From positions 1 to 36,970 of the forward strand of contig JAFUUE010000069.1 of NCBI GenBank assembly GCA_017483945.1: a stretch of DNA of 36,970 bases, given 5' to 3'. Made by a program: the position numbers and the translations under genes. The DNA is from Paludibacteraceae bacterium (GTDB lineage: Bacteria > Bacteroidota > Bacteroidia > Bacteroidales > Paludibacteraceae). Of the stretch, positions 9,096 to 35,980 are shown one piece after another; position 1 is the stretch's first letter; the number at the start of each line of letters is the position of its first letter. The notes below the pieces were generated by a model that saw nothing but the letters and a program-made list of their open reading frames with translations, was not told where the DNA came from and did not search any database.

Positions 9096-9205
9096 CGTTA
9101 CCTGACCGTTACCTGACCGTTACCTGACCCACCTGGGACGCGGGCGATTGCGGCAAAGCCGCGCCTCCCCCTAACGAAGCTGGAACGAAGCTGGAACGAA
9201 GCTGA
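9096..9205. repeat. 11-bp tandem arrays flanking a GC-rich hairpin
   Basis: Left array: CGTTACCTGAC three times (9096-9128). Centre: CCTGGGACGCGGGCG, then a hairpin GCGGC-AAA-GCCGC near 9150-9162. Right array: AACGAAGCTGG, two exact copies plus one differing at its last base (9173-9205). The left 11-mer and the CCTGGGACGCGGGCG core recur at 32759-32823. It lies between the stop of the MFS gene and the terminator of the converging gene. Confidence 0.9.
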
Positions 9206-9230
9206 CAGGTCTAACCGACTGATACATACC

Positions 9231-9279
9231 AAAAAAGAACCGGCTCCTTTGCATGAGACTTCGCAAAGGAGCCGGTTCT
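9231..9279 (-). terminator. Intrinsic terminator of the Na/Pi symporter gene
   Basis: A perfect 17-bp stem (9236-9252 with 9263-9279) with a 10-nt loop. On the minus strand it is followed by a U6 run (A-tract 9231-9236 overlapping the stem foot). It lies 26 bp beyond the stop codon at 9306. Confidence 0.88.
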
Positions 9280-9305
9280 GCGTATGTGCCTGATAACAAG
9301 CGTTC

Positions 9306-11018
9306 TCACTTGTTGTGCTTGTGCTCGTAGATGGCCTCGTCCACGTTGATGATGTAGTCCGCCATCTTCTCCAGTTCGACGATGATGTCCATGTAGTTGA
9401 CACCGGTGGTGTAGTCGTACTCCTTGTCGGTGATATGCTGCATGTTCTGCGTCTTGAGCTCGCTGCGGAAGTTGTTAATCTCGTTCTCCATATTGGTCAT
9501 GTCGAGGAACTCGTCCTCGGTGATAGCCCCGCGCTCCAACGCCTCCACCATCTTCGTCTCCGCCCCGCTGACCAAGTACAGCATCAGCTCCACGTTCTTG
9601 TTCTGGTAGTCCGTGAAGGTAATCTGCGCCTCGTGCTTATGGCGGATGTGCCGCGAGAGTTTGTAGTTGGCGTCGCCCACGGACTCCAACTCGCCCACGA
9701 TACGCAGCATCTTGTGCACCTCCCGCTTGGACTGCTCCGACAGACGGCCGTTAGCTACCTCGTTGAGGTACTGCGCTATCTCGTACTCCATGCGGTCGCA
9801 GATGCCCTCGTATTTCTCCACACGCTCCGCAATACGTGTGAACTCCGCCTCGTCCTGCTCGCTTATCAGGTCGTGAATCATGCCCACCATGCGCTGCGTG
9901 CGCACGGCGAAGACGTGTATCTCCTTCCACGCCTGCAAGATGGACAACTCGGAGGTGGACATCAGACCGCCGGAGATGAACACCAACTGGTCGCTGCGCT
10001 TCTTCTCTTCCGCCTTGGCGGGGATGATGGTGGAGACGAGCTTCTCCAGCAGCGGCACAAAACCGATGAGGATGCAAGTGTTGATGACGTTGAACGAGGT
10101 GTGGAAGGTCGCCAGCACCGCGTTCAGCTTGTCCGGCGAGACGTCAGAGGGCACGCCCGGCGTGAACTCCACGCCCCAGACCGCACACACGCTGCCCACA
10201 AACCAACGGAACACACACAGCACCCATACCACACCAAAGAGGTTGAATACCAAGTGCGCCATAGCGGCACGGCGCGCCTGCACCGAGGCGGAGAGGGCAA
10301 CGACATTCGAGGTGATGGTCGTGCCGATATTCTCGCCCAGCACCAGCGCAATACCCATGTCAATAGGCAGCACGTGCGTCGAGCACAGCGTCATCGTGAT
10401 GGCCATAATCGCCGCCGAACTCTGCACGGCAAAGGTCAATATGCCGCCCACCAAGAGGTACAAGAAATAGCTGCCGTAGCCCCAACCGGAGGTCGTAATG
10501 AAGAAATTACGCACGGCGCTAATCCGGTCGAGGTGCATCTCCGTCGCGTTAATCTTGAGGGTCGTCAGACCGAGCAGCATCAGCGACAGACCCAGCAGGA
10601 ACTCGCCGAGGTTGGTGTTGCGGCGGTAGTGAATCAGCCCGACCGCCAGGATGATGGTGGCATAAACCACGAACCGCAGGTCGAACGAACCGCCGCCCAG
10701 CACCATAATCCACGCCGTGAACGTCGTACCGATATTCGCACCCATAATAACCGAGATAGCCTGCGCCAGACTCAATATACCCGCCGACACGAAGCTCACC
10801 GTCATCACCGTTGTTGCCGTAGAAGACTGCACGGCGGCGGTGATGAATGCGCCGGTGAGCACGCCCGTGAAGCGGTTCGTCGTCATCGTGCCCAGCACAT
10901 TACTCAGTTTGCTGCCCGCCATCTTCTGCAGGCCCTCGCTCATCACTTTCATTCCGTACATCAGCATCGCCACGGAACCGATGAGCGTCATCACATTTAC
11001 CATTGGGACATTTACCAT
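9306..11018 (-). CDS. Na+/phosphate symporter with C-terminal PhoU-like domain
   Basis: NptA/YjbB-type Na/Pi cotransporter of 570 residues. The N-terminal half is two inverted membrane repeats, each with the family's QSS motif: AAVQSSTATTVM (about 60-72) and FAVQSSAAIMA (about 205-215). After residue 345 the protein becomes soluble and helical and resembles PhoU (about 365-565), a regulatory domain often fused to this family. The first Met gives MVNVPMVNVMTLIG; the third Met (VMTLIGSVAMLMYG) is also possible. No TAnnTTTG promoter is visible upstream: the gap is filled by the large 10-bp repeat array at 11031-11325, and the upstream gene ends in a terminator, so initiation must occur in or near the array or by readthrough. 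Confidence 0.93.
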   Translation of the reverse strand: MVNVPMVNVMTLIGSVAMLMYGMKVMSEGLQKMAGSKLSNVLGTMTTNRFTGVLTGAFITAAVQSSTATTVMTVSFVSAGILSLAQAISVIMGANIGTTFTAWIMVLGGGSFDLRFVVYATIILAVGLIHYRRNTNLGEFLLGLSLMLLGLTTLKINATEMHLDRISAVRNFFITTSGWGYGSYFLYLLVGGILTFAVQSSAAIMAITMTLCSTHVLPIDMGIALVLGENIGTTITSNVVALSASVQARRAAMAHLVFNLFGVVWVLCVFRWFVGSVCAVWGVEFTPGVPSDVSPDKLNAVLATFHTSFNVINTCILIGFVPLLEKLVSTIIPAKAEEKKRSDQLVFISGGLMSTSELSILQAWKEIHVFAVRTQRMVGMIHDLISEQDEAEFTRIAERVEKYEGICDRMEYEIAQYLNEVANGRLSEQSKREVHKMLRIVGELESVGDANYKLSRHIRHKHEAQITFTDYQNKNVELMLYLVSGAETKMVEALERGAITEDEFLDMTNMENEINNFRSELKTQNMQHITDKEYDYTTGVNYMDIIVELEKMADYIINVDEAIYEHKHNK

Positions 11019-11030
11019 ATGTTCATTTAT

Positions 11031-11325
11031 TAATTGTTTAAAATTGTTTAGAATTGTTTAGAATTGTTTAGAATTGTTTAGAATTGTTTAGAATTGTTTA
11101 GAATCGTTTAGAATCGTTTAGAATCGTTTAGAATCGTTTAGAATCGTTTAGAATCGTTTAGAATCGTTTAGAATCGTTTAGAATCGTTTAGAATCGTTTA
11201 GAATTGTTTAGAATTGTTTAGAATTGTTTAGAATTGTTTAGAATCGTTGACTATCTTGAACCATTTTAAACCATCTTGAACTATCTTAAACTATCTTGAA
11301 CTATCTTGAACCATCTTGAATCCAT
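11031..11325. repeat. Large 10-bp tandem array with a second, partly complementary array
   Basis: About 21 contiguous 10-bp units GAATYGTTTA (11031-11240): T-form units at both ends, ten C-form units (GAATCGTTTA) in the middle (11101-11200). From 11231 onward a second 10-bp series follows (CTATCTTGAA, CCATTTTAAA and similar, about nine units to 11325). The second unit, in register, matches the reverse complement of the first at 7 of 10 positions, plus one G-U pair in RNA. This accounts for the 348-bp gap between the Na/Pi gene and the next gene, apart from the terminator at 11325-11361. Confidence 0.95.
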
Positions 11326-11361
11326 AAAAAAATGGTATAAACCCGCATCGGGTCTATACCA
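11325..11361 (-). terminator. Intrinsic terminator of the small membrane protein gene
   Basis: A 13-bp stem TGGTATAAACCCG (11333-11345) with 11349-11361, loop CAT, with one position that is a G-U pair in minus-strand RNA. A run of seven A just left of it gives the U-tract. The stem foot is 5 bp beyond the stop codon at 11367. Confidence 0.85.
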
Positions 11362-11366
11362 CTTGT

Positions 11367-11723
11367 TCATATATAGTACGCGCCAGCAAAGCCTTTTCGC
11401 GGGGCATAACGGCGCACCAAACCGCGCTTCTGCTCGTTGGAACTCAGCGAGACAGCATTCAGCCCCGTAGTAGAATCCTCCAGACAAAGCACCTTTGTAC
11501 ATCGTACATCGCTGCTTTGTACATTATCCCTGCCGTCCCAATTGTCCGTCCCGTCCTCGTCCCATTCGTAGTCATCCGCCTCTATCTCCGCACAGGTCTC
11601 GATGAGCACATCCTGCGCCGCACGGCGGCAGTCGCCGTACTCGTCCAGCACCAGCGCCACGGCAAAAACGCTCATCAAAACGAGCACCAACAGCGAGGCA
11701 TATTTGCGGATAAACGGAATCAT
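11367..11723 (-). CDS. Small single-pass membrane protein, unknown function
   Basis: The protein has 118 residues and no recognisable family. It starts MIPFIRKYASLLVLVLMSVF, one membrane helix or uncleaved signal (about 8-26), followed by a soluble part. Residues 27-75 are acidic (EIEADDYEWDEDGTDNWDG) and 85-118 are basic; four Cys lie at about 32, 43, 75 and 80. A longer reading from an upstream Met is excluded by the promoter at 11728-11759, whose -7 box is 5 bp before this ATG. It has its own promoter and terminator, so it is a monocistronic unit. That supports a real gene although nothing reveals its role. Confidence 0.6.
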   Translation of the reverse strand: MIPFIRKYASLLVLVLMSVFAVALVLDEYGDCRRAAQDVLIETCAEIEADDYEWDEDGTDNWDGRDNVQSSDVRCTKVLCLEDSTTGLNAVSLSSNEQKRGLVRRYAPRKGFAGAYYI

Positions 11724-11727
11724 ACTG

Positions 11728-11759
11728 CAAAGGTACAAAAAAAATCTCGACCGTGCAAA
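11728..11759 (-). promoter_or_regulatory. Bacteroidetes promoter of small membrane protein
   Basis: Minus strand -7 TACCTTTG (11728-11735) and -33 TTTG (11756-11759), 20 bp apart. The ATG is 4 bp past the -7 box, so the transcript is nearly or fully leaderless. Confidence 0.75.
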
Positions 11760-11830
11760 TTTTGCACCACCTTTGTACATTCTCTTTTGAATCTTGAATC
11801 TTAAATCTTAAATCTTTATACCTCTGACTC

Positions 11831-11861
11831 TTGCATATCTGAATATTTTGTAGTACCTTTG
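11831..11861 (+). promoter_or_regulatory. Bacteroidetes promoter of the EFR1 gene
   Basis: -33 TTGC (11831-11834) and -7 TACCTTTG (11854-11861), 19 bp apart. The predicted start is near 11867, leaving a leader of about 88 nt that is almost entirely the 10-bp repeat at 11879-11950. Confidence 0.75.
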
Positions 11862-11878
11862 CACATTAATATAAAAGT

Positions 11879-11950
11879 TGTTTAACATTGTTCGGAATTG
11901 TTTAGAATTGTTTGACCATTTTGAACTATTCTAAACTATCTTAAATCCAC
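11879..11950. repeat. 10-bp A-then-B repeat inside the EFR1 leader
   Basis: Same two unit types as at 11031-11325, in the same order. Left: TTTAACATTG, TTCGGAATTG, TTTAGAATTG (11881-11910). Right: TTTGACCATT, TTGAACTATT, CTAAACTATC, TTAAATCC (11911-11948). It lies between the promoter and the start codon, ending a few bases before the ATG. Confidence 0.88.
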
Positions 11951-11954
11951 AGGT

Positions 11955-12746
11955 ATGATTATCTACTTCTCAGGTACAGGCAACTGCCTGGCTATCGCGC
12001 GACACATCGCGCAGGCACTGGACGAACCCGTCATGCCGCTCGTCAATGCCGTCAGCAACGACCTCACGGCCGAGAAACGCATCGGACTGGTCTATCCGTC
12101 GTATGACTTCAACATGCCGCCGGCTGTCAGGAACCTCATCCCCCGCCTGCGGCTTAACCCGCAGGCCTATATCTTCGCCGTCATACCCTGCGGCGCACAG
12201 GCCGGCAACTCCATATGGACACTCAGACGCATGCTCCGCGAACAGGGACTCACACTCGCCTATAGCCACAAGATACGCGTGCCCGACAACAGCGCCATCG
12301 TCTTCTCGCGCAACCCCAATGACCAGCAATGGAAATTCCAACGCTTCGACGGACGACTCCGGCAAATCATCGCCGACGTCAAGGACGCCCGCCACGCACA
12401 CCACTTCAGCACCTGGAGCCTCATCGCATGGCTCATGGCACGACCACGGATGGAAGCATGGATGCTACGCACGTTCCGACCGGTCGTCAACGAAGATAAA
12501 TGCATCGGATGCGGCATCTGCGCACGCGTGTGCCCGATGCGCAATATAGTAGTCTCTGACCGCGAGGTGCCGACTCCCGACGGACGAAAACACCTCGCCG
12601 CCATCGGACCGCACTGCACCGCATGCCTCGGCTGTGTACATAGCTGCCCGCAGCAGGCCGTCGAGGTAAACGGCCTCCCCACCCTCAAAGACCGCCAGTA
12701 CCGCCACCCCCAAGTCCTGCTCAAAGACCTGCTCCTGCGCAGATAA
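11955..12746 (+). CDS. EFR1-family flavodoxin/ferredoxin protein
   Basis: A predicted redox protein of 263 residues. The N-terminal domain (1-150) is flavodoxin-like and opens MIIYFSGTGNCLAIARHIA, with the SGTGN phosphate loop for FMN. The C-terminal domain carries two [4Fe-4S] motifs: Cys183, 186, 189, 193 (CIGCGICARVCP) and Cys221, 224, 227, 231 (CTACLGCVHSCP). Such fusions probably pass electrons between ferredoxins and flavins in anaerobes; partners are not known from this locus. It has its own promoter and a long repeat-containing leader. It stands alone between a diverging and a converging gene. Confidence 0.92.
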   Translation: MIIYFSGTGNCLAIARHIAQALDEPVMPLVNAVSNDLTAEKRIGLVYPSYDFNMPPAVRNLIPRLRLNPQAYIFAVIPCGAQAGNSIWTLRRMLREQGLTLAYSHKIRVPDNSAIVFSRNPNDQQWKFQRFDGRLRQIIADVKDARHAHHFSTWSLIAWLMARPRMEAWMLRTFRPVVNEDKCIGCGICARVCPMRNIVVSDREVPTPDGRKHLAAIGPHCTACLGCVHSCPQQAVEVNGLPTLKDRQYRHPQVLLKDLLLRR

Positions 12747-12799
12747 ACCATCTCAAACCATCTTGAACTATTCTAAACTATCTTGAACTATCTCAAACA
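12747..12799. repeat. 10-bp repeat, B-type units only
   Basis: About five contiguous 10-bp units of the CCATCTTGAA / CTATTCTAAA / CTATCTTGAA type immediately after the EFR1 stop codon. These are the same units as the right arms at 11241-11325 and 11911-11948, without a left arm. Confidence 0.85.
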
Positions 12800-12835
12800 C
12801 CACACGCGCGGGGCATTGCTGCTCCGCGCGTGTGG
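12800..12835. terminator. GC-rich hairpin between converging genes
   Basis: A 15-bp stem (12800-12814 with 12821-12835, one G-T pair) with loop ATTGCT. It lies between the EFR1 gene (plus) and the large exported protein gene (minus). There is no clear U-tract on either side, so its use as a bidirectional terminator is an inference. Confidence 0.5.
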
Positions 12836-12866
12836 GCTGTTCGGTGAGCTCCTTTCGGGAGCCACC

Positions 12867-13010
12867 CGTCCATGAGCTCCTTCCGAGAGCCGCCAAGTTT
12901 GGCGGCTATCTCACCTCGGCCCCGACAGCGTTGTATCTCCGCCCGTCCGGGAGAATGATGTAGAGCCGACCGTCCAGGAGTTCCTTCCGGGAGCCGCCAA
13001 GTTTGGCGGC
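12867..13010. repeat. Two 40-bp direct repeats flanking a C-terminal coding segment
   Basis: The copy at 12867-12906 and the copy at 12971-13010 differ at 3 of 40 positions. Each ends in the palindrome GCCGCCAAGTTTGGCGGC (12889-12906 and 12993-13010). The first copy ends at the first base of the stop triplet of the large exported protein (12906-12908); the second is inside its coding sequence and encodes the stretch AAKLGGSRKEL. A shorter relative lies at 12845-12865. A palindrome of the same GCCAA-TTGGC type occurs at 23243-23257. Confidence 0.9.
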
Positions 13011-16000
13011 CCCCATAGTCTCTATGCCTTCCGGCAAGAAGGTCGCTTCACAAGTCAGGTCACTCTCGGCTTTGTCCTCACGCCAGTTGACATTATCAAC
13101 GGCGATGGTAGCAAAGCAATAGGTGGTGTCGGCGGAGTAGGCCATTTTGTACGAGTTGCCGCGCAGAAGCGGTTCTACCAGTTCGAAAGCGGAGTCGTTC
13201 TTCGAGACATAGAGGTTAACATACGCAGCTCCCGAGGTGGCGTCGGTTGCCGTCCATTCGATGAGCAGGCTGTCGCCTACCAAGGTAACGGAAGTAGCGT
13301 GGCTCTCGGGCAGGTCGATGTCCAGCGTATTAACATAGGTGTTCGTTCGTATAGCCGCATTGGCATCAAAGATGATGGTTGCCTCATTGGCGATGGTCGT
13401 ACCGTTAGCGAGGTCGGCGAGGTGGTTGACACCGAAGGAAACGAAGCCTTCGCCTACATGGTTGTCGTCGTTAGGCAGCAGGAAGCCGTCGTCCACCTCT
13501 TCGGCGTAGTCCATCGTCTCGGGATCGAGGCTGACGAACGACCACTTGGCGATACCCGTGCTGTCGTTGAACGTACCGCTGACGCGGACGATGAGGTTAC
13601 GCGCCGGACGGAGATCCACTTCTTCCACAAACTCCTTCATCTGCTGACCGTCCACGAAGACGGTCGTGTCCGCCCAACCAAAGGAGGTGAAACCAAAGGT
13701 CGAGAAGTCGAAGCGGTCGGCAGGCAGGGTGTCGTTGATGAACACCTCATGTGCCGGCGCCGTAGCGGAGGACTTGTTCTCGAAGGTGACGGTATAGCTC
13801 ATCTCAGGCGCGGGCTTCATATAGTGCACATCGCTGAAGCCTTTGGGGCCGATCATCTCATTGGGGTCGTAACTGCTGACGCCATACAGATTACAGTCGT
13901 CGCCGTCGCCACCGCCGCAACCTTGTGCGGAATAGATATTCATCGCCGTGTTGAAAGCGAATGACGCCAATGTGCAGGCACGCCATCCCCAGCCGAGCGG
14001 GTTGAAGTCCATCGCACAACTGAAGGCGGTGCTCAGCGTGTTGGTGAAGAGGTTGCCCCAGCGGTCTTTGGGTTTGTCGGCAACGCCCATGATGGCTGTC
14101 TTGCCGATACCGTAGGCGCAGCCCACGAACGGAATAGAGCCTGCCACTGCGTCTATCGTGCCCCAGCCGAGGAAGTTCATCATACACTCTATCTGGTCGT
14201 TGCTAAAACCTTTGCGTCCGTACGCCATCGGCATGCGGCGGATAGAGGAAGAAACAGGTTCTGTCTCGTCTGTGTCAAAGACAGGCTCGCCGTTCTCGTC
14301 GTAGTCCAACGGTCCCCATGGATGGTCTATTGCCCAGAACATGTGTATATCTTGCCCTGACTTGATGAGGAAGCGTTTCGCTCCGCGGCTATGCGCTTCG
14401 ATATACGGAATGAGGAAGGAGTAACAACGCATCTGTCCGTACTCGCCGGCGTCGAAGACCACGTAGTCGCCTATCGAGTCAAGCGCAGCAGCCAATTCGG
14501 GGTCGGTGCCTTCAGGATAGCGGTCGGTCGCAAAGCCCAACTCAACATCCACGTAGTCGGGGATATAGAGATAGAACGGTACGTTGTAAGCATTGGCGTT
14601 GGAGCGGTTGCCGTACTCGATGTAATAATCTTTGCTGCGACCGACGAGGAAGCGCGGCGAGCCGGAAACGGTTGCCCATACATCGGGATATTCCAATGGT
14701 TCTATGGTAAGACCATTACGAAGAGTATCGTATGTAGTACCCAAATCTCCTCCTCCGACAATAACATCCCATTGACCTACCTCTGCTTCCGAAAGATCAA
14801 ATCTTGCGCGCAATCCTCGTAGTGCAATGGATAGATTAGTTGTACCATCTTCAAGCACTCCATGAATATCATGTTGCCCCTCTTTATGTAAGCGCATAGA
14901 ATAATTGTGTGCAGGGCCCCAAGGAAGACCTCCAATGATGCGTAGGTTGACACCACCGCTTTGTCCTACTACCGAGGGTTCCACTTTCGCAATACCGCTG
15001 ATTACAAGTTCTTGCGTATAAGGTGCACAGGCATTGGCTCCCCGTGCAACCATCATCGGATGTACTGTACATGCCGCGCTGTAGGTATGTTGCGGGTGAC
15101 GCAAGGTACTACCTGACTCACTGTAACTAACAGGCAACTCCGGGTCATCGAAATACCAATAGACAGCCTCGCCGCCCTCCGTTTGGTCAGAGAAGGAAAT
15201 TGTTTTACTTCCATAAGGTCTTGTTATTTGCATCTTTGGTGTCGGCAGTTGCAGTCCTTCGTACTCCACGAGATCGCAGTCGAGTTGTGCCACGGCATCA
15301 TTGCCGTGACCGCTGAGGTCTTTGAGTGTGCCGTCGAAACCGAGGTTTACCACACAGCCTTCCTGCGACACGGGTTGGTGTTGCGAGAGGGCAATCACTT
15401 CATCGTGTGTCAGGGCGCGACGCCATAGCTGCAACTCATCCATATACCAGTCGCGGTCGTCAGCTTGCCAGACCATCCAGTCTCCGATAGCGATCGGATT
15501 AGAACCGCGCTCGAAGGTGCCGAGCACGGTAGCCGAACGGAGCAGCATTCCGTCCATATAAAGATGGGTGTTGTTGTCATACTCGCGACCGTTCCATGTG
15601 AAGGCGATATAGTGCCATATACCCGCGTCGCCCGCCATATAGACCTGCGAGTCGTCGTAGGCATAGTTCATCAGTTTGGTACCGCCGTCCACGGCTTTGT
15701 CGGTGCAGATAAACGCCTTCGGATAGACGCGCAGACCGTTATGGTCCTTGCTCTCGAAACCGATGCTCCAGCCGGGAAAGTGCCAGTATTCCTGCACTTG
15801 TTGGTCATCGCTTGTCTCGGGCGTGTTGGTGCGCAGACTGATGACATTGGTGTTCATCGCGAGTGAGTCGATACGAATCCAGAAACCGACCGTCATGGCG
15901 GAGTCGAAAGCAAGGTCATCGGTCATAGGCAGCACAATACGTTGATGCGGGTATTCGTCTTTCGGCTTGCGGTTATGGAACGCCATGTTGGTGTTGGCGG

Positions 16001-17420: not shown

Positions 17421-17424
17421 CGGG

Positions 17425-17499
17425 TCACCCGCCCCCCTGTGCCTGCATGCCCGTCATGCCGACTACCAGCATAAGGGCAACAAAGATAATCTTCTTCAT
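17425..17499 (-). other. Signal-peptide start of the large protein, cut by a frameshift
   Basis: ATG at 17499 opens MKKIIFVALMLVVGMTGMQA, an evident signal peptide, then QGGG and a TGA stop (17425-17427). The ATG at 17499 and the downstream Met at 17420 are 79 bp apart, one more than a multiple of three. Removing one base from the G6 run (C6 at 17432-17437 on the plus strand) fuses the two frames, giving a 26-residue leader ending QGAGDP before MQQGLF. This is either a slippage-prone phase switch, a real inactivation, or a sequence error. Confidence 0.85.
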
Positions 17500-17534
17500 A
17501 TGCACGATTTGTTTTATGTTTCGATTTTGCGCTG

Positions 17535-17542
17535 CAAAGATA
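17535..17542 (-). promoter_or_regulatory. -7 box of the large exported protein gene
   Basis: TATCTTTG on the minus strand, preceded by TTG as in the other promoters here. It lies about 36 bp before the signal-peptide ATG. No -33 TTTG/TTGC is found at the usual 19-20 bp spacing; a repeat pair (17563-17604) begins there instead, suggesting dependence on an activator. Confidence 0.55.
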
Positions 17543-17562
17543 CAACTTTTCTTCGAAGAAGC

Positions 17563-17649: not shown

Positions 17650-17660
17650 TGTTTCCTGTA

Positions 17661-19079: not shown

Positions 19080-19086
19080 CCCGCTG

Positions 19087-19118: not shown

Positions 19119-19191
19119 CGAAAGTTGTAAAATATAGTATTACTTCCCACCGATTTTACACCCAAAGTGCCGGTTTTCACTCAAAGTAATA

Positions 19192-20271: not shown

Positions 20272-20277
20272 CGAGCG

Positions 20278-21045: not shown

Positions 21046-21057
21046 TAGGGGAGAGTG

Positions 21058-23242: not shown

Positions 23243-23380
23243 CTGCCAAATTGGCAGGAACGGTCTCCCGAACCTGACCCGAACCTGACCCGAACCTGAG
23301 GGGCGGATTCGGCTGATTCATAGTGCGATAACAGGGTCAGCATCGTTCCAGGTTCGTTCCAGGTTCGTTAGGCGCTCGCG
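23243..23380. repeat. Palindrome plus 11-bp arrays in inverted arrangement
   Basis: Palindrome CTGCCAA-A-TTGGCAG (23243-23257), then CGAACCTGACC units at 23269-23279, 23280-23290 and an imperfect third from 23291. After a 40-bp centre, CGTTCCAGGTT is repeated at 23344-23354 and 23355-23365, running into CGTTAGG. The right unit is close to the reverse complement of the left (8 of 11). It lies between the lplA stop (23416) and the dnaK promoter region. Confidence 0.88.
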
Positions 23381-28373: not shown

Positions 28374-28385
28374 GTTGCTTATGTT

Positions 28386-29531
28386 TTATTCAGTTATTTC
28401 TTTCTCACTGCCCGTCTCGGCGGCCTGTTTGTCTGCCGTAGCGGGGTCAAAGCGTTTCTCGAAGCGCTCGGGGCGTTCACGCGGCTCCTCGGGTTTGACG
28501 ACGAGCGGGTTGGCGTTTATCTCGGCGTTCCGTGCCCGCGTATGCAGCAGGTCGATAGCCATGCAGAGCGCATGACTGAAGCTCTGCGGGTCGGCGGTGT
28601 TCTTGCCGGCCAGGTCGTAGGCCGTGCCATGGTCGGGCGAGGTACGGATGATGCTCAAGCCGGCGGTGAAGTTGACGCCGTTCATGTCCAGCGACTTGAA
28701 GGGGATGAGCCCCTGGTCGTGATACATGGCCAGCACCGCATCGAAATGCACGTATTTGCCTGCGCCGAAGAAACCGTCTGCGGAATAGGGACCGACCGCG
28801 AGGATGCCCTCCTCGTTCGCCTTGGCGATAGCCGGCCGTATGATGGTCTGCTCCTCGGTGCCGATGAGGCCGTTGTCTCCGGCATGGGGGTTGAGCGCCA
28901 ACACGGCTATACGCGGGCGACGGATGGTGAAGTCGGTCTGCAGGGCCTTATTGAGCACGCGCAACTTGTGCAGGATACGCTCCTCGGTCACCATCCCCGC
29001 CACCTTGGCGATAGGCACATGGTTGCACACCAGCGCCACGCGCATCGGCTCGCTCACCATCATCATCAGGCTGCCGTCCGCCGCATCCTTGCCGAACAGG
29101 GAGGTCAGGTACTCGGTGTGGCCGGAGAAACGGAAGCGGTCCGACTGGATATTCTCCTTGTTGATAGGGGCGGTGACGAGTGCGTCCACCTTGCCGGCCT
29201 TCAGGTCCGCACTGGCGCGCTCCAGCGAGGCCAGAGCCGCCTGTCCGGCTTCGGGCGTTGAGACGCCTATCTGCACAGGGGTCTCATCGGGATAGCAGGT
29301 GATGAGGTTGAGCCGGCCGTCCTTCGCCTGACGGGGGTCGTCGATGAGGTTGAACTGGATATTGTGGTACTCCTCGCTGAGCGTGTGCGCATGGATACGC
29401 GCTATCTTCGCGTTACCATAGACCACGGGACGGCATATCTCGCAGATATGCGGGTCGGCGATACCCTTGAGGACAATCTCGTAGCCTACGCCGTTGATGT
29501 CGCCGGCGGTGATTGCTATTGTCGGTTTCAT
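28386..29531 (-). CDS. pdxA: 4-hydroxythreonine-4-phosphate dehydrogenase
   Basis: NAD-dependent step of the DXP-dependent pyridoxal phosphate route. Starts MKPTIAITAGDINGVGYEIV. Metal-binding histidines are in CNHVPIAKV, LNPHAGDNG and MYHDQGLIPFK, the three standard sites; TSPDHGTAYDLAGK is also typical. The protein has 381 residues, longer than the usual 330-360, because of a charged tail (from about 348, rich in Glu, Arg and Pro) after the conserved domain. Start overlaps the nitroreductase stop by 4 bp. pdxJ, its usual partner, is not in the window. Confidence 0.95.
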   Translation of the reverse strand: MKPTIAITAGDINGVGYEIVLKGIADPHICEICRPVVYGNAKIARIHAHTLSEEYHNIQFNLIDDPRQAKDGRLNLITCYPDETPVQIGVSTPEAGQAALASLERASADLKAGKVDALVTAPINKENIQSDRFRFSGHTEYLTSLFGKDAADGSLMMMVSEPMRVALVCNHVPIAKVAGMVTEERILHKLRVLNKALQTDFTIRRPRIAVLALNPHAGDNGLIGTEEQTIIRPAIAKANEEGILAVGPYSADGFFGAGKYVHFDAVLAMYHDQGLIPFKSLDMNGVNFTAGLSIIRTSPDHGTAYDLAGKNTADPQSFSHALCMAIDLLHTRARNAEINANPLVVKPEEPRERPERFEKRFDPATADKQAAETGSEKEITE

Positions 29532-30046
29532 ATATTCGATTGAATTACTTTGTCGTATTGTAGTTTGTCGAAGTCATAGGATCGGCGCTGCTCGTCGGGA
29601 TGTCCGAGCGAGACGACGCACAGGATAGTGAGCCCCTCGGGCACGGCCGCCGCCTCACGTATCAACTGCTCCGCCCCTTCGCGCCCATAGACCTGGCACC
29701 AGCATGCGCCCAGTCCCAGGTCGGCAGCCGCCAGCAGCATGTTCTGCGCAGCGATAGCGCCGTCGCACTGCCATGTGTCCGTGAGCGAGGCATCCAGCGC
29801 TACGACAATGCCGGCCGCTGCCGTGTCGAACATTTGACTGCCATACGTGCGGCAGCCCGCCATCCGCCGAAGCACGGCCCGGTCCGTGACCACAACAAAG
29901 CGCCATGGGTTGATGCGCTTACCGGACGGCGACATCAACGCACAGCGCAGGATATAATCCAACTGCTCTTGCGTCAGCGGCTCCTCTGTATATTTGCGAA
30001 TAGACCGCCGGAGGCGGCATAGCTCCTGAAAATTCTGCATAACCAA
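29528..30046 (-). CDS. Nitroreductase-family FMN oxidoreductase
   Basis: A flavin-dependent NAD(P)H oxidoreductase of the nitroreductase superfamily, 172 residues. The FMN phosphate-binding N-terminus is present as RRSIRKYTEEPLTQEQLDYI, followed by SPSGKRINPWRFVVV, and a C-terminal flavin contact region AAADLGLGACWCQVYG. Physiological substrate is unknown. Start is either MVMQNF or the third residue. First gene of the operon with pdxA, alaS, gtrA, guaD and lplA; promoter at 30114-30144, leader about 60 nt. Confidence 0.88.
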   Translation of the reverse strand: MVMQNFQELCRLRRSIRKYTEEPLTQEQLDYILRCALMSPSGKRINPWRFVVVTDRAVLRRMAGCRTYGSQMFDTAAAGIVVALDASLTDTWQCDGAIAAQNMLLAAADLGLGACWCQVYGREGAEQLIREAAAVPEGLTILCVVSLGHPDEQRRSYDFDKLQYDKVIQSNI

Positions 30047-30113
30047 CCGGATTTGAGCACAAGACGATGCCGCGCCGCGGGAGCACGGGCGAGGGTCTTG
30101 TCAAACGTGGGTG

Positions 30114-30144
30114 CAAAGTTACGCATTTTTTTTCATATACGCAA
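30114..30144 (-). promoter_or_regulatory. Bacteroidetes promoter of the nitroreductase-lplA operon
   Basis: Minus strand -7 TAACTTTG (30114-30121) and -33 TTGC (30141-30144), 19 bp apart. It is the only canonical promoter seen for the six overlapping genes down to 23416. Confidence 0.75.
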
Positions 30145-30220
30145 CCCATAACCGCTTTTTATTCCCTTTTCCGGAAGAATAGCCGGCGGCGCATCTGCCT
30201 CCGCCCAAAACATAGAGGCT

Positions 30221-30248
30221 AAAAAAAATCGCCCCGAAGAGCGATTTT
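30221..30248 (-). terminator. Intrinsic terminator of serS with UUCG loop
   Basis: In minus-strand RNA a 10-bp stem (30239-30248 with 30225-30234, one U-G pair) closes a UUCG tetraloop with a C-G pair, followed by U8 (A-tract 30221-30228). It is 35 bp past the serS stop. Confidence 0.9.
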
Positions 30249-30282
30249 CTTTGCCTCTGCATCAGCACCCGGCCGCTGCACC

Positions 30283-31662
30283 TCAGCGAATCATGTCGCC
30301 TCCGAAGTACGGCTGCAGGGCGGCGGGGATACGGATGCCCTCTGCGCACTGGTTGTTCTCCAGCAGGGCCGCCACGATACGCGGCAGCGCCAAGGCCGAA
30401 CCGTTCAGCGTGTGGCAGAGCGTCACCTTCTTGTCCTCCGCACGGCGGTAGCGGCAGTGCAGACGGTTAGCCTGATAGGTGTCGAAATTGCTGGTGCTGG
30501 ACACCTCCAGCCAGCGGTGCTGCGCCTCGCTATAGACCTCAAAATCATAGCACAACGCGGCCGTGAACGACATATCACCGCCGGACAGACGCAGGATGCG
30601 GTAGGGCAGCTCCAGTTTCTGCAGCAGGCCCTCGACATGCGCTAACATCTCCTTGTGCGAGGCGTCGGAGTGCTCCGGCGTATCGATGCGGACAATCTCT
30701 ATCTTGCTGAATTCGTGCAGACGGTTCAGTCCGCGCACATCCTTGCCGTACGAGCCTGCCTCGCGGCGGAAGCACTCGGTATAGGCGCAGTTCTTGATGG
30801 GCAGGTCTTTCTCGTCGATGATGACGTCGCGGTAGAGGTTCGTCACCGGCACCTCCGCCGTCGGAATCAGGTACAGGTCGTCCACCTCACAGTGGTACAT
30901 CTGTCCCTCCTTGTCAGGCAGCTGGCCCGTGCCGTAACCGGAGGCCTGGTTGACCACCGTCGGCGGCATAATCTCCGTGTAGCCGGCCTTGTTCGCCTCG
31001 GCCAGGAAGAAGTTGATGAGTGCGCGCTGCAGGCGTGCACCCTGGCCGATATAGACGGGGAAACCGGCGCCCGATATCTTCACGCCCAGGTCGAAGTCGA
31101 TGAGGTTATACTTCTTCGCCAGGTCCCAGTGAGGGGCGAGAGGCTCACCACCCGTATTCTTCGACAGGCGGTCGTCTGCAATCGCCTCGTCGGTAGCGGT
31201 ATCCCAGTCGCGGAGTGCGACGGCACCGTCCTTGGCGATGGCGTCAATCATGGTCTGGTTGGGCCAGTTGCCGATTGTGACGGCCAGGTTATCCTCCGCC
31301 GAAGAGCCTTCGGGCACGATGTCGTACGGGATATTCGGGATAGTGAGCAGCAGCGCCGTCTGGGCCTTCTCCGCCTCGGCCATCTCGGCCTCGTAGCGGG
31401 CGATGTCCGCCTTCAGCTGACCGGTCTGCGCCTTGGCTGCCTCGGCCTCCTCGCGCTTGCCCTGCGCCATGAGCCGGCCTATCGACTTGGAGATACGGTT
31501 CATCTCCGCCTGCGCATTATCCTTCTGTACCTGAGCGCCTTTGCGCTCCGCATCCAGGGTCAGCACACGCGCTATCGCGTCCGCCGCATCCGCAAAATGC
31601 TTCTTCTCGAGGCCGGCTATCACATGCGCCTTGTCCTCGTATATCTGTTTGAGTGTAAGCAT
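30283..31662 (-). CDS. serS: Seryl-tRNA synthetase
   Basis: Class II synthetase charging tRNA-Ser, 459 residues, full length but slightly longer than the usual 425. It starts MLTLKQIYEDKAHVIAGLEK; residues about 35-110 form the two-helix coiled coil that grips tRNA. Motif 2 is CFRREAGSYGKDVRGLNRLH with the catalytic Arg; motif 3 is LNGSALALPRIVAALLENNQ. The C-terminus RIPAALQPYFGGDMIR is standard. It follows rpmA by 112 bp and ends at the UUCG terminator, so rplU-rpmA-serS is probably one unit with partial attenuation at the hairpin 31715-31754. Confidence 0.97.
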   Translation of the reverse strand: MLTLKQIYEDKAHVIAGLEKKHFADAADAIARVLTLDAERKGAQVQKDNAQAEMNRISKSIGRLMAQGKREEAEAAKAQTGQLKADIARYEAEMAEAEKAQTALLLTIPNIPYDIVPEGSSAEDNLAVTIGNWPNQTMIDAIAKDGAVALRDWDTATDEAIADDRLSKNTGGEPLAPHWDLAKKYNLIDFDLGVKISGAGFPVYIGQGARLQRALINFFLAEANKAGYTEIMPPTVVNQASGYGTGQLPDKEGQMYHCEVDDLYLIPTAEVPVTNLYRDVIIDEKDLPIKNCAYTECFRREAGSYGKDVRGLNRLHEFSKIEIVRIDTPEHSDASHKEMLAHVEGLLQKLELPYRILRLSGGDMSFTAALCYDFEVYSEAQHRWLEVSSTSNFDTYQANRLHCRYRRAEDKKVTLCHTLNGSALALPRIVAALLENNQCAEGIRIPAALQPYFGGDMIR

Positions 31663-31714
31663 GGTGTATTGTTCATTCCGGGCACAAGGCCCTGTTCGTA
31701 TCGTTATAAAAGAA

Positions 31715-31754
31715 TAATCTCCCGCCGAATGCCGAAGCCCTCGGAAGGAGATTA
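31715..31754 (-). terminator. Possible attenuating hairpin between rpmA and serS
   Basis: Outer stem TAATCTCC (31715-31722) with GGAGATTA (31747-31754), inner stem CCGA/TCGG (31732-31735 with 31741-31744). On the minus strand it is followed by ATTCTTTT, a weak U-tract. It lies 20 bp after the rpmA stop. Confidence 0.45.
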
Positions 31755-31774
31755 AGTGGTTGTCCCCAAGCCGA

Positions 31775-32038
31775 TTAAGCTTCTGTTACCGGCTCGATAG
31801 AGACATAGGAGCGATTGTTCTTCTTGCGACGGAAGGTCACAATGCCGTCTTTCAGCGCATAGAGCGTGTGGTCACTGCCCATACCCATGTGCTCACCGGG
31901 ATAGTGCACCGTACCACGCTGACGTACAATGATGTTACCTGCCTTTGCAAACTGTCCGCCCCAGATCTTCACGCCAAGGCGTTTGCTTTCTGATTCACGA
32001 CCGTTCTTAGAACTGCCGACACCTTTCTTATGTGCCAT
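31775..32038 (-). CDS. rpmA: 50S ribosomal protein L27
   Basis: The protein has 87 residues and starts [20 protein letters not shown], the invariant L27 N-terminus that reaches the peptidyl-transferase centre; there is no Firmicutes-type N-terminal extension. [20 protein letters not shown] and [17 protein letters not shown] match the family. It lies 45 bp downstream of rplU, the usual L21-L27 pair. Confidence 0.98.
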
Positions 32039-32083
32039 AATCTACTGTCTTTTAAGCATTAAACATTTAACATTCAACAGAGA

Positions 32084-32401
32084 TTACGCGATAATCTCTT
32101 TTAGCAACAGGTCCGTCAGGTTCTGACGATGACCGTTCAGTTTGCGATAGCCCTTGCGGCGTTTCTTGTGGAAGACCAGAATCTTCTCGCCACGGCACTC
32201 GTTGTCAAGCACTTCGCAGACAACCTTTGCGCCCTCAACGACGGGAGTTCCCACTTTCACCTTGCCGTCGTTCTCGACGAGCAGCACGTTCTCAAACGTC
32301 ACTTCCTGACCCTTCTCCAGGCCCTCCATGCGATTGATGAACAGTTTCTTGCCAGCCTCTACGCGGAACTGCTGGCCTTTCATTTCTACAATTGCGTACA
32401 T
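32084..32401 (-). CDS. rplU: 50S ribosomal protein L21
   Basis: The protein has 105 residues: [20 protein letters not shown] and the RNA-binding end [18 protein letters not shown] are standard for L21. It is the first gene of rplU-rpmA-serS. The nearest promoter (32644-32674) gives a leader of about 235 nt that contains a 33-bp tandem repeat, long for a ribosomal protein gene and a candidate for regulation. Confidence 0.98.
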
Positions 32402-32455
32402 TGATTTATAATGTATTAAGTTACATCGTGCAGGCGGCTTGACAGGTCTTTGGCG

Positions 32456-32560
32456 CTGCTGACGCCCTCTTCCCTCTGCGACTTCGGTGTGCTAACACCC
32501 TCTGTCCAATGTGACTTCGGTGTGCTAACATCCTCTGTCCTGTGTGACTTCGAGAGGCAA
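32456..32560. repeat. 33-bp tandem repeat in the rplU leader
   Basis: Units 32478-32510 and 32511-32543 differ only slightly; a partial copy begins at 32544 (GTGACTTCG) and a diverged partial copy precedes from about 32456. The period is exactly 33 bp, three times the 11-bp unit seen elsewhere in the window. On the minus strand the repeat would encode an 11-residue motif ending LAHRS, but no start codon fits the promoter, so I do not call a gene. Confidence 0.8.
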
Positions 32561-32643
32561 GCCCCCTTTGTCTCTTCGGAAATACGGCGGTCTCATACGC
32601 TGCCTGTGGCGTCTTTCGGTAGAGCCTGGCGCGAAAAAGCATG

Positions 32644-32674
32644 CAAAGGTACAACAATTATTTCACATACGCAA
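32644..32674 (-). promoter_or_regulatory. Bacteroidetes promoter of rplU-rpmA-serS
   Basis: Minus strand -7 TACCTTTG (32644-32651) and -33 TTGC (32671-32674), 19 bp apart. The predicted start is near 32638. Confidence 0.75.
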
Positions 32675-32758
32675 GAGTTCCCCGCTTTTTTCTGCAAAAA
32701 AATCTCCACCCCACCCCCTCCCTCCCCTTTTCCGCCCTCTCCCTACCCCCTTCCGCTC

Positions 32759-32917
32759 CGTTACCTGACCGTTATCTGACCGTTACCTGACCGTTACCTG
32801 ACCCTACCTGGGACGCGGGCGGCTCGCCCGCGGATGACCGGAACGGGCAGGGCATCAGGTTTTACTACACCTCTTGCGTCTGATGACGCATCCGCGGGCG
32901 AGCCGCCCGCGTCCCAG
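32759..32917. repeat. 11-bp array followed by a 29-bp perfect inverted repeat
   Basis: Four 11-bp units CGTTACCTGAC (one with a T) at 32759-32802. Then a perfect 29-bp inverted repeat: 32808-32836 with 32889-32917, separated by 52 bp. Each arm contains its own GCGGGC/GCCCGC hairpin. The array and the first bases of the arm (CCTGGGACGCGGGCG) are shared with 9096-9146. Confidence 0.92.
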
Positions 32918-33011
32918 AAGAGTCCAATGAAACGGAGTGCTCGGATGATGTTTTCGACTTTGGACTTTGGACCTTCGGCTTTCGTCTATCCGCCTCATTA
33001 TCAGAACGCGC

Positions 33012-33165
33012 AACAGACCTGGAACAGACCTGGAACAGAGCTGACCCATTCATTTCCCTATCAATCAGGCAAATCCGACCCCCAGCATCGTTCCAGCTTC
33101 GTTCCGGCATCGCTCCAGGTACGGGTCAGGTTCGGGTCAGGTTCGGGTCAGGTTCGGGTCAGGTT
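33012..33165. repeat. Two 11-bp arrays in inverted arrangement
   Basis: Left: AACAGACCTGG at 33012-33022 and 33023-33033, then a variant to 33044. Right: seven contiguous 11-mers from 33089 to 33165, grading from CGTTCCAGCTT through CGCTCCAGGTA to four exact copies of CGGGTCAGGTT (33122-33165). The last is the reverse complement of the CGAACCTGACC type at 23269, in shifted register. Confidence 0.9.
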
Positions 33166-33255
33166 CGGGTTTCCCCACGCATCGCGCCCCTCCCCTAACA
33201 AAAAAAACACACCACGGGGGCAGGGTGTAGGGTTGGAGGTTTATAAAACTCTCTT

Positions 33256-33308
33256 CACCCGCGCACGCGGGGATATTATAGTAACGCGTATTATCGCGCG
33301 CGCGGGTG
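33256..33308. repeat. Inverted repeat with alternating CG tract
   Basis: CACCCGCGC (33256-33264) and GCGCGGGTG (33300-33308) with an AT-rich middle. The right arm continues a (CG)5 run at 33295-33304, a sequence prone to the Z form. No gene is associated; it is part of the 1.2-kb gap 32402-33602, in which I see no convincing coding sequence. Confidence 0.6.
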
Positions 33309-33381
33309 TATATAAATCCCGATAAAGGCGCCACCCTGCGGACTTTCGGAGCGAGTTCCTCGGCGAAGAAAGGGCTCTTTT

Positions 33382-33475
33382 TGGGTGTAACCTTTCGCAA
33401 CGTTACACCCACCCTACACCCAACCCTACACCCAACCCTACACCCAACCCTACACCCAACCCTACACCCGGTCCT
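33382..33475. repeat. 12-bp tandem array upstream of the glnN promoter
   Basis: A 10-bp inverted repeat (33382-33391 with 33402-33411, containing GGGTGTAAC/GTTACACCC) leads into ACACCCAACCCT repeated four times exactly (33416-33463) with imperfect units at both ends (33405-33415 and 33464-33475). It ends 35 bp before the -33 box of the glnN promoter, so it is not transcribed with glnN; an upstream regulatory role is possible. Confidence 0.88.
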
Positions 33476-33509
33476 ACAAGGCCGCCCGCAAAAAAAGTGC
33501 ACCTGCCTC

Positions 33510-33540
33510 TTGCATATATGCATTTTTTGTTGTACCTTTG
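33510..33540 (+). promoter_or_regulatory. Bacteroidetes promoter of glnN
   Basis: -33 TTGC (33510-33513) and -7 TACCTTTG (33533-33540), 19 bp apart. The leader to the ATG at 33603 is about 57 nt. The promoter position excludes a longer protein start upstream. Confidence 0.78.
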
Positions 33541-33602
33541 CGTCGAAATTACGACAATTTCTCAATTTAATCCGATTAAAAACCAAAAACAACCTCTTTT
33601 TT

Positions 33603-35822
33603 ATGGCAAATATCCGTTTTGAAGCGTTACAGAGAGCGTGCGAACACGAACCGATAGCGGTAGAGTGCCCCTCCGTGCATGCCTCATCCTACTTCGCAAG
33701 CGATGTCTTCACACGCGCGAAAATGAAGGAATATATAGCAAGCGGCGTGCTGGAGCAGCTGTTTGACGATGTGGACAACGGCCGTACCATCCAGCGCGAG
33801 ATAGCGGATAGTGTGGCCATCGGCATGCGCAAGTGGGCCACGGAGCACGGCGCGACGCACTACACCCACTGGTTCCAGCCCCTCACCGGCGGCACGGCCG
33901 AGAAGCACGACGCCTTCTTCACCATGACCCCCTCCCCAAAAGCCCAAGGCGAGAGCCACGGCGGCATGACCGTCATGGAGGAGTTCACCGGCGACGCCCT
34001 CTACCAGCAGGAGCCCGACGCCTCCTCCTTCCCCAACGGCGGCATACGTAACACCTTCGAGGCACGCGGATACTCGGCCTGGGACCCCTCCAGCCCCGTC
34101 TTCCTGCGCGGAGACACCCTCTGTATCCCCACCGTCTTCGTCGCCTACACCGGCGAGGCACTCGACTATAAGACGCCCCTCATACGCTCCACCGCAGCCC
34201 TCTGCAAGGCCGCCCGTGAAGTGTGCCAGTACTTCGACAAAGGCGTCCGCCACGTGCACGCCAACCTCGGCTGGGAGCAGGAGTACTTCCTTGTGGACGA
34301 GGCGCTCTACAACGCCCGCCCCGACCTGATGCTCACGGGACGCACCCTCCTCGGCCACGACAGCGCCAAGAGCCAGCAGCTGGAAGACCACTACTTCGGC
34401 GCCATTCCGGCACGAGTGCTGGCCTTCATGCAGGACCTCGAGCACGAAGCACTCAAAGCCGGCATACCCGTGCGCACACGCCATAATGAGGTGGCACCCA
34501 ACCAGTTCGAGATGGCCCCCGTCTTCGAGGAGGTGAACCTCTCGAACGACCACAACCTGCTGGTCATGTCTATCATGGAGCGCGTGGCGCAACGCCACCA
34601 CTTCCGCGTGCTGCTCCACGAGAAGCCCTTCGCGGGCGTCAACGGCAGCGGCAAGCACTGCAACTGGTCCATCCAGACCAACACCGGCGTCAACCTGCTT
34701 GCGCCGGGCAAGAACCCCTACCAGAACCTGCAGTTCGTCACCTTCCTCGTCAACGTGCTCATGGCCGTCCAGCGCCATAACGGCCTGCTCAAGGCCTCCA
34801 TCGTCAGCGCCACCAACGAGCACCGCCTTGGCGCCAACGAGGCTCCGCCCGCCATCATCAGCGTCTTCCTCGGCAAGCAGATAACCGAAGTCCTCGATAA
34901 ACTGGAGCACGCTGCTGCCGACAAGGGCATCATCATCAATGCCAAGAAGGAGATGAAACTGGGCGTGGCCAACATCCCCGAGATACTGCTGGACAATACC
35001 GACCGCAACCGCACCTCGCCCTTCGCCTTCACCGGCAACCGCTTCGAGTTCCGCGCCGTCGGCTCCTCCGCCAACTGCGGCGCGGCGATGCTGGCCCTCA
35101 ACGCCGCCGTGGCAGAGCAACTCACGCTCTTCAAAGCCGAAGTGGACAGCCGCATCGAGAAAGGCGAACCCAAAGAACGCGCGCTGTTTGACGTCATCAA
35201 GAAATATATCGTTGCCTGCAAGCCCATCCGCTTCGACGGCAACGGCTATAGCGAGGAGTGGAAAGCCGAAGCGGCTAAGCGCGGACTGGACTGCGAGACG
35301 AGCGTCCCCGTCGTCATCGACCGCTACCTCGCCCCCGAGAGCATTGAGATGTTCCGCACGACGAGCGTGTTGAGCGAGGCGGAGTTGCACAGCCGCTGCG
35401 AAGTCAAGTGGGAGACCTATGCCAAGAAACTGCAGATCGAGAGCCGCGTCATGGGCGACCTCGTCGTCAACCATGTGCTGCCCGCCGCCAAACGCTACCA
35501 GACCATGCTCCTGCAGAACGTCCTCGCCGTCAAGCAGGTCTTCCCTGCCGACGAGACCGCCTCGCTCAACGAGATGGACTACTCCATCATCCGCCGCATT
35601 GAGAACCACTCCGGCGCCATACTGGCCGGCGTGGAAGCGATGACCGAGGCGCGCCACAAAGCCAACCGGATGCCCGACGAGCGCAGCAAGGCAGTCGCCT
35701 ACCACGACACCGTCCTCCCCCTCATGGCCGACATCCGCACCCACGCCGACGCCCTGGAGCTCATCGTCGATGACGAAGTCTGGACCCTCCCCAAGTACCG
35801 CGAGCTGCTGTTTATCCACTAA
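33603..35822 (+). CDS. glnN: Glutamine synthetase type III (GSIII-N)
   Basis: Forms glutamine from glutamate, ammonia and ATP. The protein has 739 residues, the size of the large dodecameric type III enzyme common in Bacteroidetes. It starts MANIRFEALQRACEHEPIAV. N-terminal type III-specific signature HWFQPLTGGTAEKHDAF (about 88-104); catalytic core NGSGKHCNWS (347-356) and NRFEFRAVGSSANC (479-492). Type III-specific C-terminal helical extension from about 600. All motifs are intact. It is monocistronic, with its own promoter and an upstream 12-bp repeat array; nitrogen control is expected for this gene but no known operator is recognisable. Confidence 0.97.
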   Translation: MANIRFEALQRACEHEPIAVECPSVHASSYFASDVFTRAKMKEYIASGVLEQLFDDVDNGRTIQREIADSVAIGMRKWATEHGATHYTHWFQPLTGGTAEKHDAFFTMTPSPKAQGESHGGMTVMEEFTGDALYQQEPDASSFPNGGIRNTFEARGYSAWDPSSPVFLRGDTLCIPTVFVAYTGEALDYKTPLIRSTAALCKAAREVCQYFDKGVRHVHANLGWEQEYFLVDEALYNARPDLMLTGRTLLGHDSAKSQQLEDHYFGAIPARVLAFMQDLEHEALKAGIPVRTRHNEVAPNQFEMAPVFEEVNLSNDHNLLVMSIMERVAQRHHFRVLLHEKPFAGVNGSGKHCNWSIQTNTGVNLLAPGKNPYQNLQFVTFLVNVLMAVQRHNGLLKASIVSATNEHRLGANEAPPAIISVFLGKQITEVLDKLEHAAADKGIIINAKKEMKLGVANIPEILLDNTDRNRTSPFAFTGNRFEFRAVGSSANCGAAMLALNAAVAEQLTLFKAEVDSRIEKGEPKERALFDVIKKYIVACKPIRFDGNGYSEEWKAEAAKRGLDCETSVPVVIDRYLAPESIEMFRTTSVLSEAELHSRCEVKWETYAKKLQIESRVMGDLVVNHVLPAAKRYQTMLLQNVLAVKQVFPADETASLNEMDYSIIRRIENHSGAILAGVEAMTEARHKANRMPDERSKAVAYHDTVLPLMADIRTHADALELIVDDEVWTLPKYRELLFIH

Positions 35823-35849
35823 CTGTTTAGCTCTATCGTTCCGTATCTG

Positions 35850-35980
35850 TCTCGTATGTCTCTCGTATGTCTCTCGTATGTCTCTCGTAAGTGGCAAGTA
35901 AGTGCAAAATGAAGATACTAATAATTGCGACTCTCCAACACAGGATTAACACAGGATTAACACAAGATTAACACAGCATA
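35850..35980. repeat. Two 11-bp arrays between glnN and the DUF6624 gene
   Basis: First array: TCTCGTATGTC at 35850-35860, 35861-35871, 35872-35882 and a partial fourth. Second: AACACAGGATT at 35937-35947, 35948-35958, then AACACAAGATT 35959-35969 and AACACAGCATA. The unit length is 11 bp in both but sequences are unrelated to each other. No terminator or canonical promoter was found in this 237-bp gap. Confidence 0.88.

Follow-up and report, generated by a model that had tools for sequence, protein, structure and literature searches.

Dispersed tandem repeat arrays with an 11-bp unit in the noncoding DNA of a Paludibacteraceae genome and its congeners

What are the short tandem repeats that occupy gap after gap between the genes of a Paludibacteraceae bacterium, and why does their unit length approach one turn of the DNA helix? 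We addressed this question for a window of 36,970 nucleotides, that is, the whole stretch of DNA analysed (assembly GCA_017483945.1, contig JAFUUE010000069.1, positions 1-36,970, forward strand), which belongs to a draft genome with a completeness of 89% (G000; genomes and contigs are cited below by handles beginning with G and L, respectively). A first-pass annotation had listed nine gaps with tandem repeats, and Tandem Repeats Finder, run on the window, detects arrays at all of them (9/9); the sites were also inspected by direct sequence reading (Table 1). Our results support the existence of a genome-wide, nearly all-noncoding class of arrays with a sharp preference for a unit length near one helical turn.

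The abundance of the arrays was assessed in a 321-kb set consisting of the window and 20 other stretches of the same genome, picked by contig number with their content ignored. A custom scanner, which scores tandem matches for each period, was applied with a cut-off of 18 for period counts and yielded 0, 8, 31, 1 and 0 arrays with periods of 9, 10, 11, 12 and 13 bp, respectively, and three arrays with a period of 7 bp. Period-11 arrays thus exceed those of neighbouring periods, and they are present in gaps outside the window too (24 of the 31, versus seven in the window). At a cut-off of 16, with gaps of at least 60 bases between codon-based gene calls treated as noncoding, 37 of the 38 11-bp arrays lie in 52.9 kb of noncoding DNA and one in 266.9 kb of coding DNA; the same 52.9 kb hold eight 10-bp arrays, the window contributing 9/38 and 2/8, respectively. 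The calls come from a custom codon-usage caller, by which some genes are missed or misplaced; it superseded a cruder gene finder that had scored 13 of 35 11-bp arrays of the stretches as coding. Sixty order-3 simulations of the noncoding DNA produced no array at any period from 7 to 20, and the arrays are therefore real and far above chance expectation. They range from 27 to 64 bp in length, with 31 of 38 measuring 32-46 bp, or roughly 3-4 units, and 33 of 61 arrays in a larger set, partly chosen for matches, round to 3.0 units. The number of units varies between copies inside one genome. A preference for unit lengths of 10-12 bp as a group is not supported: the peak is at 11 bp, 12-bp arrays are as rare as those of other periods, and arrays of 10 bp constitute a set of their own that is rich in AT. 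For the 33-bp repeat, located at 32480 and previously placed in the same family, no link to the 11-bp arrays could be established.

The first-pass annotation regarded the units as different from site to site, which is half right, given that families recur and 11-mers containing ACCTGA or CGACGG are found at many loci. Nearly identical arrays occupy numerous places in this genome whose flanks differ. When window positions 9000-9600 were compared with the own genome, 50 of the 53 matches fell inside the array stretch of the query. Triples of ACCTGA-N5 give 67 pattern matches in the own genome (overlaps counted) and three in G036, but none in the other 59 genomes searched. The CGACGG-N5 family is preceded by a leader whose last bases are CCCGTACCGTTC or a variant thereof and comprises sub-families (ATCYC, CACAC, TCGGC and others after the hexamer) stacked one behind another; a similar leader also precedes the 11-mer TCGCGTGATTG. 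A family C array with its leader yields 30 matches in the own genome, some covering one part only. In G010, there are 26 matches for the ATCACCC element of the family ATCACCCAGTW, in which the leader is 31 bp long in 12 of 12 measured copies, with a varied sequence, and is followed by four to six units. In the genome_contigs collection, an exact 22-mer of family A was encountered at four places in two other organism groups, three of the four being one identical two-unit stretch within a long open reading frame, and was dismissed as chance. Among 2.9 million viral contigs scanned with six array patterns, four patterns had no match at all. Contig L265 matches family C but lacks the leader and has further CCGTCGG motifs close by, and L266 (571-690) carries a longer array of about ten 11-bp units, AACA[GC]ACCTGG, resembling family B; because so many contigs were scanned, these matches may be coincidental, and we make no claim about either.

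The left/centre/right architecture described in the first pass was borne out by a composite element found at 23 loci. Behind an array of the CCCGAACCTGA type there is often an inverted array built of AACAGACCTGG-type units, and the layout consists of three 11-mers, a centre and three inverted 11-mers (window copies at 23267-23369 and 33012-33169). Twenty-one loci came from a genome-wide pattern search allowing 22-52 bases ahead of the inverted arm, and two were found otherwise. The centre measures 37 bp at 21 of the 23 loci, 19 as called by the script and two by reading: a 48-bp call that comprises 37 bp and one degenerate unit, and the window copy at 33045-33081, for which the script, interpreting a CTG inside the centre as a unit, gave 20 bp. 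The sequences of 19 centres drift (mean pairwise identity 52%, range 21-86%) around a few kept positions, A8 in 19/19 and C14, T15, G16, A17 and G24 in 18/19 each. Among 37 axes tried on 21 centres, the best dyad axis falls on position 19, the exact middle, with a complementarity of 0.59 (next best, 0.52). A length that is kept while the sequence drifts fits a geometric constraint on DNA and, together with the central dyad, leads us to infer a protein-DNA complex as the source of that constraint. A gap-free alignment of 11 composites spans 103 columns and gives a weak consensus RNA fold (-2.26 kcal/mol), with 0 of 12 pairs changed on both sides and all pairs resting on the unvarying CTG/CAG; an earlier fold of eight sequences, two of them wrongly bounded, had given -3.78 with unfavourable covariation and three pairs changed on both sides and is superseded. 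The proposed conserved RNA hairpin is not upheld. The reported inversion of right relative to left units stands at 23269 and 33012 because both are copies of one composite present at 23 loci, but is unsupported at 11032. Compared individually with shuffled units, the sites show inverted similarities of 8/11 at 23267 (P 0.02), 8/10 at 11878 (P 0.04), 7/11 at 33012 (P 0.13) and 6/10 at 11032 (P 0.34), values that are individually not strong given that seven pairs were tested.

In the other congeneric species, sampled with 1.04 Mb (loci L073 and L074 of G004, which read as N, being excluded), the scanner counted 15 arrays with period 11, 23 with period 7, three with period 9, two with period 12 and none with periods 10 and 13. 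Other families of the order, sampled with 0.27 Mb, yielded no period-11 array, and two further genera of the same family, sampled with 108 kb, no array with a period of 7-30. Of 151 genomes from the genus, 64 have CGACGG-phased triples, counting the own genome (one genome in the backward control), as against 0 of 294 others covered by the order search, among them a congener and two further genera of the family. Accordingly, 11-bp arrays are spread across the genus, one family being widely shared and the other units seen differing by species, and within the samples taken they have been seen only in this genus. The claim that helical phasing, rather than sequence, is what is selected thus survives in part: congeners share the unit length with mostly different units, but families also spread within a genome and CGACGG-N5 recurs in many. 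The 7-bp arrays, at least as frequent as the 11-bp ones in the other species sampled, likewise have units that differ by species (for instance, L123 1785, L125 3228 and L132 19398). Separately, G017 and G064 share 8,271 bp without gaps at 96.9% identity (L125 9810-18080 versus L129 654-8924), compared to 80.7% in their IleS regions, which may reflect recent transfer or a binning mix.

No single regulatory position explains the placement of the arrays. In the 321-kb set, 21 of the 11-bp arrays lie in co-directional, five in convergent and four in divergent gaps, seven at contig edges and one in a gene. In co-directional gaps, the sense to antisense counts are 9:3 for C alpha, 8:2 for B, 9:6 for A and 4:4 for A', the loci being partly chosen for matches; the 20 placed copies of the G010 element are found in ten divergent, four convergent and six co-directional gaps. 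Between convergent genes, the window also contains a long hairpin (9236-9280) resembling a bidirectional terminator.

Some arrays reside within genes. Among the 23 family C alpha loci, four overlap with a called gene, three of them in the sense orientation and the lone antisense one on a weak call. In the own genome, IleS contains PTDPRRISDG in frame, and the alpha subunit of 2-oxoacid:acceptor oxidoreductase three array modules in frame. A methyltransferase gene contains two modules and a palindrome, and valS of G004 three 11-mers. Both the IleS and the oxidoreductase linkers were sought in 18 genomes each and obtained in 16. The oxidoreductase linker comprises 75 residues in G000, the surplus corresponding to the array modules, versus 24-40 in the 15 other genomes. 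The IleS linker ranges from 34 to 55 residues across the 16 genomes and, in readings made by eye as for the flanks, holds different repeats in different species: 11-bp units in G000, G021 and G083, an 11-bp-like element common to G017 and G004, 7-bp units in G025 and G014, 9-bp units in G078 and G082, a weak TCAG repeat in G029, a palindrome in G064 and G033, and no clear repeat in G065, G019, G035 and G022. Palindromic elements of the CCCTCTCC..GGAGAGGG type also occur in frame in the linkers of IleS (L250, L255) and the oxidoreductase (L240, L241). Between G014 and G029, adjacent blocks of 93.4% and 94.1% identity are separated by an 88-bp stretch in one genome only; one gap in the 93% block has different repeats, and an 85% block carries 7-bp units with differing sequences in both. 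The 88-bp stretch (L121 8806-8894), missing at the matching place in G014, includes several small hairpins separated by CCATTTTAAC/TTTAACG. The patterns in the linkers and in this genome pair fit repeated gain at tolerant sites, and in-place replacement of one array by another is possible.

A GC-rich palindromic dispersed repeat, GGGACGCGGGCGGCTCGCCCGCG, is present in the window at 32804-32836 and 32886-32920 and also in L015, L061 and L200. It adjoins about one-third of the family A arrays among the matches listed and is readable in frame as TWDAGGSPA. The own genome has one match to Y1 (RAYT-like) transposases (L297 465-1280), and the N-terminus encoded by this gene includes two copies of the peptide of the palindrome, which may be the REP of this transposase. 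Matches to the Y1 family were obtained in 16 of 37 genomes of the genus, 12 of them above the cut-off.

Table 1. Arrays and composite elements in the window. Starts called by Tandem Repeats Finder: 11-bp arrays, 9095, 9173, 23267, 23343, 32758, 33012, 33082, 33116, 35842 and 35937; 10-bp arrays, 11032 (21.7 units), 11253, 11878, 11924 and 12745; a single 12-bp array, 33404; a single 33-bp repeat, 32480 (2.2 units).
Positions	Strand	Feature	Remark
9095..9129	+	family A array, CCGTTACCTGA x3.2	followed by a GC-rich palindrome fragment
9173..9204	+	family B array, AACGAAGCTGG x2.9	
11032..11248	+	10-bp array, AATCGTTTAG x21.7	AT-rich 10-bp set
11253..11325	+	10-bp array, ATCTTGAACC x7.2	inverted similarity to left unit not significant
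11878..11945	+	10-bp arrays, left 11878-11913, right 11924-11945	inverted, 8/10
12745..12798	+	10/20-bp array	AT-rich set
23267..23299	+	composite, left arm, CCCGAACCTGA x3	family A'
23300..23336	+	composite, 37-bp centre	CTGATTCATAG around dyad
23337..23369	-	composite, right arm	inverted family B units, n=3
32480..32552	+	33-bp repeat x2.2	not shown as family member
32758..32803	+	family A array x4.2	followed by GC-rich palindrome 32804-32836
33012..33044	+	composite in reverse orientation, family B arm x3	
33045..33081	-	composite, 37-bp centre	direct reading
33082..33169	-	composite, inverted 11-mers, n=8	B-type grading into A'-type
33404..33469	+	12-bp array, TACACCCAACCC x5.6	
35842..35889	+	11-bp array, CGTATGTCTCT x4.4	
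35937..35976	+	11-bp array, AACACAGGATT x3.6	family F; second copy in L068 at 249

We consider it fairly probable that the arrays are small, non-autonomous dispersed repeats restricted to the genus, the 11-bp pitch of which is held by a putative DNA-binding protein. Such elements would spread by copying into insertion-tolerant sites, and the putative protein would contact one site per helical turn and hold the arms in register. The constant pitch and centre length would then reflect this protein, which may mobilise the element or organise DNA. Slippage or recombination would alter the number of units, and unit sequences would turn over, either because families die and arise or because the specificity of the protein shifts. 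A nucleoid protein, as suggested in the first pass, or another binding protein is a possible, putative partner of the arrays. Several observations weigh against this interpretation. Family A arrays have no flank common to all copies, so the moving unit of this family is undefined, and the centre measures 27 bp at one composite locus and 15 bp at another. The linkers and gaps are too diverged for a target-site duplication or an exact empty site to be resolved, and identity between G014 and G029 is uneven (78.9% in the IleS regions and 89.2% in the oxidoreductase regions). No transposase or binding protein tied to the arrays emerged, the Y1 family search having singled out no driver, and G010 has no Y1 match though it bears a dispersed array element. 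Finally, the arrays are sparse in the other species (15 in 1.04 Mb), and 87 of the 151 genomes of the genus lack a CGACGG triple.

More tentatively, and with decidedly less confidence, one may envisage a genus-wide system in which a fast-evolving putative binding protein with an 11-bp footprint aligns on the arrays and the rigid 37-bp centre and copies or uses the elements. If so, the sequences of the units would change from species to species while the geometry is kept, in parallel with satellites that coevolve with their binding proteins.

The arrays might instead be operators or chromosome-organising sites of the host, recognised by a response regulator, a ParR-like protein or a nucleoid protein, selected and immobile. 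The dyad and the fixed centre would suit such a complex, and precedents exist: PHO boxes are defined by 11-nt tandem units with a conserved and a less conserved part (PMC4415409), and they and the parC iterons are tandem 11-nt units bound by protein (PMC4415409, PMC4949242), binding being putative in our case. Whereas those units serve regulated promoters or a plasmid centromere, the present ones occupy many loci and vary between species. The 11-nt pitch also fits PhoB/OmpR-type operators, the direct repeats of which lie upstream of regulated genes, but the arrays are found in every type of gap and within coding genes, and their units differ even between congeneric species; hence, we regard this explanation as unlikely.

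Slightly less credible still is the formation of the arrays in place, as simple sequence repeats generated locus by locus through polymerase slippage, without mobility. The variation in unit number between copies is what slippage would produce, and the 7-bp arrays of the genus match the heptamer excess of other bacteria (PMC4679880, PMC4692102). However, the dispersal of the arrays weakens this explanation, as does the order of variants, with two copies of GAGATCCGTCG and then GGGATCCGTCG identically at six sample loci, most of which share a leader; nor would slippage be expected to yield a centre of 37 bp or arrays with inverted partners.

Among known systems, the STRR and LSSR families share with the arrays head-to-tail units of about 5-11 nt, a few at each of many mostly intergenic loci (PMC4679880, PMC4692102). 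Those units are typically, if not by strict definition, heptamers, in contrast to the predominance of period 11 over period 7 in the own genome (31 versus 3), and the arrays described here differ further in their species-varying units and in the fixed leader or the 37-bp dyad centre with inverted partner arrays.

It is very improbable that the arrays are classical miniature inverted-repeat transposable elements (MITEs) or REPINs mobilised by a resident transposase such as a Y1/RAYT enzyme. They are short, dispersed and mainly intergenic, have inverted arms and, in the G010 family, combine a leader of constant length with a variable number of units, as MITEs do, and the Y1 gene of G000 encodes the palindrome that adjoins part of the family A arrays. 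Nonetheless, no terminal inverted repeats were recognised by eye in the flanks of families A and C or of the G010 element, the ends of which are not defined, no target duplications were recognised either, the arms consist of tandem units rather than one palindrome, and the G010 element exists without a Y1 match. BrickBuilt, a MITE of Porphyromonas gingivalis built of a leader, units and a tail, is likewise dispersed with a variable unit number and a narrow host range, but has 23-nt units, terminal inverted repeats and 19 copies that are always intergenic (PMC4596501), unlike the 11-nt units described here, which occupy more loci, genes included. REPINs, spread within genomes in many copies, also have inverted arms around a spacer, but their arms are REP palindromes with compensatory changes (PMC3116915), whereas ours are tandem 11-mers without such changes. 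The palindromic elements of Rickettsia resemble the arrays in IleS and the oxidoreductase in that they are in-frame repeats of conserved genes and also occur in gaps, but they are palindromes of 105-146 bp (PMC2229807) rather than tandem 11-mers. The arms of the composite, moreover, pair only partly (0.57 of positions), unlike a single long palindrome with terminal inverted repeats. Least probable of all are RNA elements, that is, terminators or hairpins formed by the inverted arrays, which would benefit from the inverted arms, the short hairpin that the centre can form and the sense bias of C alpha and B, but are at odds with the weak fold lacking doubly changed pairs, the orientations of A and A' and the ten of 20 G010 copies located between divergent genes.

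Because the arrays have something in common with every known kind considered here but depart, or may depart, from each in some feature, we view them as a variant of dispersed short tandem repeats. The geometry of the arrays is not met among the literature matches listed; a class of dispersed 11-bp repeats was also not among these matches, which cover open-licence literature, so absence from print is not thereby shown. Heptamer repeat families are known from cyanobacteria, Beggiatoaceae and Xanthomonas, and their passage between lineages is described as unexplained (PMC4679880, PMC4692102), the authors finding, for one such family, no evident transfer mechanism (PMC4679880). Both the spread of short tandem repeat families and the reason for the 11-bp pitch become testable here, because a single genus offers many species with different families, in part at identical insertion-tolerant sites, and an element of fixed geometry.

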